DNA from: Actinomycetota bacterium
GTDB taxonomy: Bacteria; Actinomycetota; Nitriliruptoria; Nitriliruptorales; JAHWKO01
Direction of reading: 5' to 3'
DNA: 64,000 nt
NCBI GenBank assembly: GCA_019347675.1
Contig: JAHWKW010000005.1
Span: forward strand, 1 to 64,000
The notes under the pieces were generated by a model that was given only the letters and a program-made list of their open reading frames with translations, searched no databases and had not been told where the DNA came from. The translations under genes were made by a program, and so were the position numbers. Shown here in pieces: positions 33,639-35,507 of the stretch (positions are counted from its first letter, which is position 1; every line of letters begins with the position of its first letter).

Positions 33639-33803
33639 CGATGACCTCCCCGTCGGGGACTCCAGGAGGATACTCCCGATCCTCCCGTCGGTTCGGTGAC
33701 AGTCCATGCAGACGACCACGGCGGCTGGTTGACGGCGGGCGTCGCCTGGTGGAAGCTGGAAGGTGGCGCAAGGGACCCCGCAGCCAACGAGACGGGAGCT
33801 GCC

Positions 33804-34490
33804 GTGACGGTGCCTGACTTCGCGCTCACCGACCAGGCCGGCCAACCCTGGACGCTGTCGGAGCACCGCGGGGACGTGGTGGTCATGGTGTTCTACCGTG
33901 GCGACTGGTGACCGTTCTGCAACGGGCAGCTCGCCGGTCTGGCTGAGCATCACGGGGATCTGACCGACGCTGGGGCCCGCGTGGTGGCGATCAGCGTGGA
34001 TGAGCCGACCACCAACGCCGCGCTTGTGGACAAGCTCGACCTTCCTTTCCCGATCTTGAGCGACCCCGACGGCGAGGGGGTCATCCGACCCTACGGGCTG
34101 TGGCACGAGGACAAGGGCGTGGCTCGGCCAGCGGTCGTGGTGGTGGGTCCCGACGGTGAGGAGCTGCTCCGCCAGGTTGGTGGGGAGTTCTCGGACCGCT
34201 TGAGCGAAGCGGAGCTGGTCGAGCGGGTCCGGGCCTTCGCCGAGGACCGCGACGTGCAGCCGGTCGACCAGCCACCTCCGGCGAGCGAGGAGCCCGATCC
34301 CAGCGACGGCGCGTTCCCCCCCGATGCCATGACGCCGTACTTCAAAGGCGTGAAGTTCGCCGCGATCGCCCTCGGGATGCGCGCGCCGCAGGCCAAGGAA
34401 CAGGCCGACGCCCTGCGGGCGGAGGCGGAGCGCTACCTCGAGGCGACCCGCCACCGCACGGAAAGCGCTCGACGAGAAACAGGCGAGTAG
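33804..34490 (+). CDS. Peroxiredoxin-like protein with in-frame UGA at the catalytic Cys (putative selenoprotein)
   Basis: 228 residues if the UGA at 33909-33911 is read as selenocysteine. The GTG at 33804 follows GGGAG. The thioredoxin fold begins [20 protein letters not shown], then [14 protein letters not shown]36[13 protein letters not shown]. In relatives the motif is YRGDWCPFC, so UGA replaces the peroxidatic Cys and Cys39 is the resolving partner (UxxC). The frame resumes without other defect through [20 protein letters not shown] and [20 protein letters not shown] to 34490, with an extra C-terminal extension ending [15 protein letters not shown] and a charged helix. Without Sec insertion only 35 residues would be made. 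It probably reduces peroxides or disulfides in the cytoplasm. Convergent with senB. Confidence 0.75.
33929..33948 (+). promoter_or_regulatory. SECIS-like hairpin after UGA
   Basis: Bases 33929-33948 can fold as GCUC-GCC-[GGUCU]-GGC-(bulged U)-GAGC, seven paired bases with a 5-base apical loop. The loop GGUCU is that of the E. coli fdhF SECIS. Its first G is 25 nt after the last base of the UGA, within the range reported for bacterial SECIS elements (about 16-37 nt). Unlike fdhF, the bulged U is on the 3' strand. Folding was done by eye. Confidence 0.6.
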
Positions 34491-34556: not shown

Positions 34557-35507
34557 TCAGAGGCTGGCGAGGAGCTGCTGCCAGCTTGCGCGCTCCGTCG
34601 CGGGGTCGACCAGCGGGGCGAGTCGGGCGCACGCGTGGCGCAGCGACCGCTGCAGATCGGCGTCGGTCTCGACGCGGTACAGGATCGCCGCGAGGTCGGC
34701 GGTGTCGCCTGGGGTGAAGTACCCGGGGTAGTCCTCTCCGAGGATGCCCACCGACCCGGGGATCCGCGACGCGATGATCGGGACCCGGCAGGCAAGTGCT
34801 TCGGAGACGACGTTGGCACCGCCCTCGGAGGTCGATGAGAGCACCATGCACCGCGAGCGGGCCAGGATCTGAAGCGCGTGCCGGCGCGGCAGTTCGCCGA
34901 GCCAGGCGTAGCGCGGGTTGGTCGCCATCTCCTCCTTGGCGGCGCGGCCCAGCTCCTCGTCGAGCACCCCACCGGCGTGCACGACCCGTATCCGTGATCG
35001 GGCCGGCAGCAGCCGGGCGGCGCGCCCGGTGCGCAGCGGGTCCTTGACCTTGCGCAGGTGGGCCAGGACCGACACCTCGAACAGGTCCGGAAGCGGGCGG
35101 CGCGGACCCGGCGGTGGGACGGCGGACTGCACCACGACCTGAGCGCGGGGTTGCAGCTGCGCCGGTAGTTGTTGGACAGCGAGGGGCTGCAGGACCACGT
35201 AGCGGTCGGCGAGTTCCAGCGACCGGCGCGCCTCCGCGTCGGTGTGGATGTCGCGGTAGACGTCGGTGCCGGTCAGGGCCAGCACGATCGGCCGCTGGGG
35301 ATGGCGCTCGTGGAAGCGGGCGATCGATGTTGCGCTACGGCGGGCGTGAAGGGCGACCAGGACATCACAGGGCTCGTCGTCGTACGACTCGCCCACCTGC
35401 ACGCGGTGACCCAGGTCGCGCAGGATCCGTGCCCACCGTTGGGCGGTGACGCGGTTGCCCCGCGTCGACTGTGGCGGGGCGGGAGTGACGACACAGATCC
35501 TGTGCAC
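34557..35507 (-). CDS. senB: Selenosugar synthase SenB family glycosyltransferase (TIGR04348)
   Basis: 316 residues from the ATG at 35507. It is a GT-B glycosyltransferase of the TIGR04348 branch: ICVVTPAPPQSTRGNRVTAQ at the N-terminus, VALHARRSATSIARFHERHP, LALTGTDVYRDIHTDAEARR, HAGGVLDEELGRAAKEEM and SEGGANVVSEALACRVPIIA near the C-terminus. These segments match the diagnostic pattern of SenB, which makes a selenosugar from selenophosphate and a UDP-sugar in selenoneine synthesis. senA (EgtB-like) and senC (SelD-like) are not in the window. It is convergent with the UGA-containing peroxiredoxin, 66 bp apart, which supports a selenium-related neighbourhood. Confidence 0.85.
   Translation of the reverse strand: MHRICVVTPAPPQSTRGNRVTAQRWARILRDLGHRVQVGESYDDEPCDVLVALHARRSATSIARFHERHPQRPIVLALTGTDVYRDIHTDAEARRSLELADRYVVLQPLAVQQLPAQLQPRAQVVVQSAVPPPGPRRPLPDLFEVSVLAHLRKVKDPLRTGRAARLLPARSRIRVVHAGGVLDEELGRAAKEEMATNPRYAWLGELPRRHALQILARSRCMVLSSTSEGGANVVSEALACRVPIIASRIPGSVGILGEDYPGYFTPGDTADLAAILYRVETDADLQRSLRHACARLAPLVDPATERASWQQLLASL

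Follow-up and report, generated by a model that had tools for sequence, protein, structure and literature searches.

Within the 64,000-nucleotide stretch of actinobacterial DNA analysed here (the window), a gene for a protein of the peroxiredoxin (Prx) fold carries an in-frame TGA at codon 36. This raises the question of whether the codon is read as selenocysteine (Sec) and, if so, what kind of redox protein results. From the sequence we conclude that the gene very probably encodes a Prx-like selenoprotein with a UxxC motif, in which UGA 36 would be read as Sec by SelB and tRNA-Sec(UCA), with a hairpin at 33929-33948 serving as the SECIS. An earlier note had proposed a putative selenoprotein here, and this is strongly supported by the complete Sec machinery of the genome, the conserved TGA column, selection downstream of the codon, and the hairpin, from which we infer Sec insertion. 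The features concerned are as follows.

33804..34490, + strand: putative Prx-like UxxC selenoprotein gene; GTG start, 228 codons, TGA as Sec, TAG stop
33794..33798, + strand: GGGAG, a probable ribosome-binding-like site, 5 nt upstream of the GTG, judged from sequence
33909..33911, + strand: TGA predicted to encode Sec as residue 36, where UxxC begins; homologues have TGA at the same column
33918..33920, + strand: TGC encoding C39, which falls on the peroxidatic Cys in alignments with peroxiredoxins; invariant in the family alignment (A1, 21 members)
33929..33948, + strand: SECIS-like hairpin GCUC-GCC-[GGUCU]-GGC-U-GAGC, with a lower stem of 4 bp, an upper stem of 3 bp, a U bulged out between them on the 3' side, and a GGUC-type loop
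34320..34481, + strand: C-terminal family extension, about residues 173-226, two predicted helices (alignment A1 and AlphaFold model)

An Intact Reading Frame around the TGA

U36 is the sole internal stop across the 228 codons, with the local reading YRGDW-U-PFCNGQL. The read-through product matches the Pfam family AhpC-TSA (PF00578; 9.1e-32, 110.1 bits vs a cut-off of 26), and because this match spans residues 3-118, the sequences flanking the TGA form one domain. The description of the TGA at 33909-33911 as lying inside an otherwise intact frame is thus borne out. GC content by codon position resembles that of coding sequence both before the TGA (0.71/0.43/0.91) and after it (0.79/0.47/0.85). 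A plain ORF caller sees the gene only from a GTG at 33981 (169 amino acids), and UGA-containing genes of this kind are easily misannotated in just this way, as truncated proteins beginning past the TGA.

Fold and Active Site

AlphaFold models residues 1-150 with confidence as a Prx-type domain (pLDDT about 95); the C-terminal helical part that follows is less certain (pLDDT mostly 60-83). The best solved relatives in the PDB are Bcp4 and AhpE (TM-score 0.86-0.87, normalized by target). The UxxC motif (U36-P-F-C39) lies at the first active-site helix, which spans residues 37-48 in the model.

These relationships would also suit a true Sec peroxidase of the TxxU type, with Sec at the peroxidatic position: the fold is that of a peroxiredoxin, the closest structures are Bcp4 and AhpE, and peroxiredoxin families match the protein, though below their cut-offs. 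The details of the site make such an enzyme highly improbable. Profile alignments with solved peroxiredoxins (Bcp, AhpE) put C39 on the peroxidatic Cys and U36 on Thr/Ser, so that the UGA does not stand exactly at the peroxidatic cysteine, as the earlier note had it, but at the Thr of PxxxTxxC, the column of the first CxxC residue. The Pro of PxxxTxxC is replaced by R32, and P109, invariant in the family (alignment A1), is aligned with the catalytic Arg of AhpE (R116; an R116A mutant has Ala there) and of the Aeropyrum enzyme. Of the classical peroxiredoxin signature (PxxxTxxC plus catalytic Arg), C39 alone is kept. We take the position of P109 to be the cis-proline place of thioredoxin-like oxidoreductases, and these alignments together argue for a thioredoxin-like active site (UxxC plus Pro) set in a Prx frame. 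With U36 at the Thr of PxxxTxxC, C39 at the peroxidatic place and Pro in place of the catalytic Arg, the predicted product is not a classical peroxiredoxin and is best described as a "Prx-like" redox protein of the UxxC kind.

As a UxxC Prx-like protein, the product would have U36 at the beginning of the first active-site helix, where a thioredoxin CxxC has its first Cys, with C39 as its partner. U36 would most likely be the nucleophile attacking a peroxide or a disulfide; a U36-C39 selenenylsulfide would then form, to be reduced by the cellular thiol system. We regard peroxide and disulfide as about equally probable substrates, and peroxidase activity via U36 in another geometry is possible.

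Conservation of the TGA Column

Within the same order, one genome from a different family carries a gene that is 45% identical and likewise has TGA at this column. Relatives (E <= 1e-22) are present in 38 genomes of a draw of 397 made evenly across the phylum. The Sec column could be typed in 41 genes, comprising 30 with TGA (window included), nine with Cys, one with Asp and one with Ser, so the Cys/Sec exchange that had been suggested as a check does occur among homologues. TGA at the U36 column is found in 29 other actinobacterial genomes, one of them (G325) with a damaged gene, and since it falls at exactly the same column in homologues of many genera, the in-frame TGA at 33909 is not a chance occurrence.

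A maximum-likelihood tree places the window in an all-Sec branch (support 100/100), and the Cys, Asp and Ser forms are grouped in one part of the Rubrobacteraceae branch; Sec is the commoner state of the family and, with the root of the tree arbitrary, probably the older one. Two Rubrobacteraceae homologues (L079, L081), whose Sec column is occupied by Asp (GAC) or Ser (TCC), retain C39, which suggests that C39 may have a function of its own. With Sec, Cys, Asp and Ser forms so close together, the family is suited to studies of Sec/Cys exchange; two metagenome-assembled genomes hold both a Cys and a Sec copy.

The same picture in the window could have arisen if a Cys gene had acquired the TGA as a nonsense change, either truly, by pseudogene formation, or only apparently, by sequencing error, with nothing made past codon 35. 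A one-base change from TGC to TGA would suffice, and the source genome is a draft in 76 contigs (97% complete). Against this, the same TGA recurs in independent assemblies from many genera and several families, and the part past it is conserved and under purifying selection. Between the window and a near homologue (L054), dN and dS are 0.20/0.61 before the TGA and 0.42/0.93 after it, and among the nearest homologues generally dN is below dS on either side, dS being high and the values rough. Unrelated stops or frameshifts, named in the earlier note as a sign against a selenoprotein, are absent from most homologues and occur in a few draft genomes: the G325 gene contains a duplication along with more stops, G389 has a second copy that carries TAA, and three genes in draft assemblies (L057, L078, L080) appear frameshifted or shortened. 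An error or pseudogene is thus largely refuted, and we give it only a very slight chance.

Carriage of the gene as a Sec form also goes with the means of decoding it. Of 28 genomes with a TGA gene, 24 gave a tRNA-Sec match, vs 181 of 369 others (Fisher test, p = 1e-4, kinship ignored). Among the four TGA-gene genomes with no tRNA-Sec match, selA is present in two (G148, G374); searches for selA and tRNA-Sec in the other two, drafts 82% and 88% complete, found neither. These last two hold a Cys copy as well as the TGA copy (L181 and L182, with L072 and L071).

Several other sequences show further variation at this site. Two divergent paralogues have lost active-site Cys residues: L188, outside the 41 typed genes, reads GGDWSAYD and has lost both, and L189 reads RGDWCAYD, with Asp at the C39 position and the second Cys lost. 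In L191, from one draft genome, a short stretch at the Sec site is repeated in tandem (RGDW*PDW*PDC), and another stop lies farther downstream.

Against a genome contig collection, a single-protein query gave no match and an alignment query retrieved Cys forms alone; because the pattern, GDWCPYC, admits only Cys forms, this result is uninformative on Sec frequency. The Cys relatives with GDWCPYC are presumably members of the broad cd02970 family.

Selenocysteine Machinery

All the components that the earlier note had listed for checking (selA, selB, selD and tRNA-Sec) are present in the source genome, selD in two copies. On contig 16, selA (498.7 bits) is directly followed by selB (251.2 bits, above cut-off), and contig 10 carries tRNA-Sec (77.2 bits vs a cut-off of 47), to which ARAGORN assigns the anticodon UCA. 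SelB and this tRNA would decode UGA codon 36 as selenocysteine. Both selD genes (L018, L019) score above cut-off, and each has a TGA within HGAG-U-ACK, where SelD usually carries its Sec; the genome thus has two selenocysteine-containing selenophosphate synthetases.

Across the phylum draw, tRNA-Sec was found in 205 of the 397 genomes, so the Sec trait is common in this phylum.

A SECIS-Like Hairpin Downstream of the UGA

Nearly every Sec homologue has a small hairpin whose loop is placed exactly 20 nt past the UGA. The loops at +20 are GGUC, AGUU or CGUG, with GU invariant and the first and last loop bases around it covarying (G-C in 15, A-U in three, C-G in two). In several homologues (L055-L059), three apical pairs sit on about four lower ones, with a U bulged out on the 3' side. 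The window hairpin has the same layout with other stem bases and is shifted by 4 nt, its loop starting 24 nt after the UGA, with no GU at +20.

In the bSECIS model the apical loop is small, carries G in its first two positions and lies 16-37 nt downstream of the UGA (PMC13188914). The window has a GGUCU loop at +24 on a 3+4 bp stem with a bulged U, in agreement with this model (PMC13188914), and an alternative fold competes with it. An RGUY-capped hairpin is found in 28 of 30 Sec-type genes vs three of 11 others, the remaining two Sec-type genes having CGUG at the +20 place. When the same residues of the window are recoded synonymously 200,000 times, a strict form of the hairpin appears in 269 of the recoded sequences. 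It follows only one of the window's 1,352 TGAs, namely that at 33909-33911. Because the window and its homologues helped to shape the descriptor, the resulting 0.13% is not a clean probability, and both counts somewhat favour the window because the descriptor permits one extra loop base that the window needs. The best fold of a 48-nt segment is a competing pairing with the loop CGCC, and free folding of the 61 nt downstream of the UGA shows no extra stability relative to shuffled sequences (z 0.00); hairpin shape and loop are informative here, and folding energy is not. On the evidence of shape and loop, the hairpin at 33929-33948 would direct UGA decoding as a SECIS. Its shifted place allows a direct test of how freely bacterial SECIS elements can be positioned.

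Reading of the UGA as something other than Sec, by reassignment to Trp or by a near-cognate suppressor, would open the frame as any TGA-reading code does, but it is scarcely credible, given that the sole UCA-anticodon tRNA found (by a general tRNA finder run on part of the contigs) is a tRNA-Sec of typical shape, that the U36 column exchanges with Cys and not Trp, and that the hairpin, selA and selB are present.

Comparison with Known Selenoprotein Families

UxxC Prx-like selenoproteins are established, their thiol:disulfide oxidoreductase activity itself being only predicted (PMC1794560, PMC2398784, PMC13188914). The window protein resembles this Prx-like thiol:disulfide oxidoreductase, or "Prx-like 1" (PF00578; PMC1794560, PMC2398784, PMC13188914), in its AhpC-TSA fold, in a UxxC Sec at the thioredoxin-type position and in the existence of Cys forms; what sets the actinobacterial subfamily apart is the motif RGDWUP[YF]C together with a helical extension, about 60 residues long, at the C-terminus. 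The peroxiredoxin-like family cd02970 shares the Prx-like fold, but its selenoprotein form has a UxxS motif (PMC13188914, Table 1) where the window protein has UxxC. PrxU (TxxU; NF040737) likewise has an AhpC/TSA fold with Sec in the active site and is the best NCBIfam match by E-value (1.7e-14), at 54.1 bits vs a cut-off of 270; its Sec is at the peroxidatic place, whereas that of the window protein is at the Thr place. The SelL-related redox protein model (NF040769) is matched weakly by all 21 family members, the window protein scoring about 42 bits vs a cut-off of 120.

No NCBIfam model reaches its cut-off with the window protein, and the UxxC Prx-like kind is already known; the protein is therefore an addition to that kind, distinguished by its extension and its actinobacterial distribution. 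In the literature on UxxC Prx-like selenoproteins, supplements aside, we found no naming of an actinobacterial RGDWUPYC group. We give even chances to a fuller proposal: that this is a previously unrecognised actinobacterial subfamily with its own C-terminal helical domain, mostly Sec-containing, with Cys (and Asp/Ser) forms nested in the Rubrobacteraceae, in which the SECIS slid by 4 nt in the window lineage and kept its shape. If true, the slide would be a natural example of how a recoding signal can shift inside a conserved coding sequence.

Neighbouring senB and Probable Selenoneine Synthesis

The gene has a selenium-related neighbour:

34557-35507, - strand: senB (selenosugar synthase; 394.8 bits), beside the selenoprotein gene

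The earlier note found this adjacency noteworthy. No senB homologue was found near the Sec gene in 15 other genomes examined, the adjacency has no evident meaning, and we rejected a functional link by neighbourhood since it is not conserved. The source genome also has senA, on another contig (L180), and with senB and senA both present the organism probably produces selenoneine in addition to selenoproteins.
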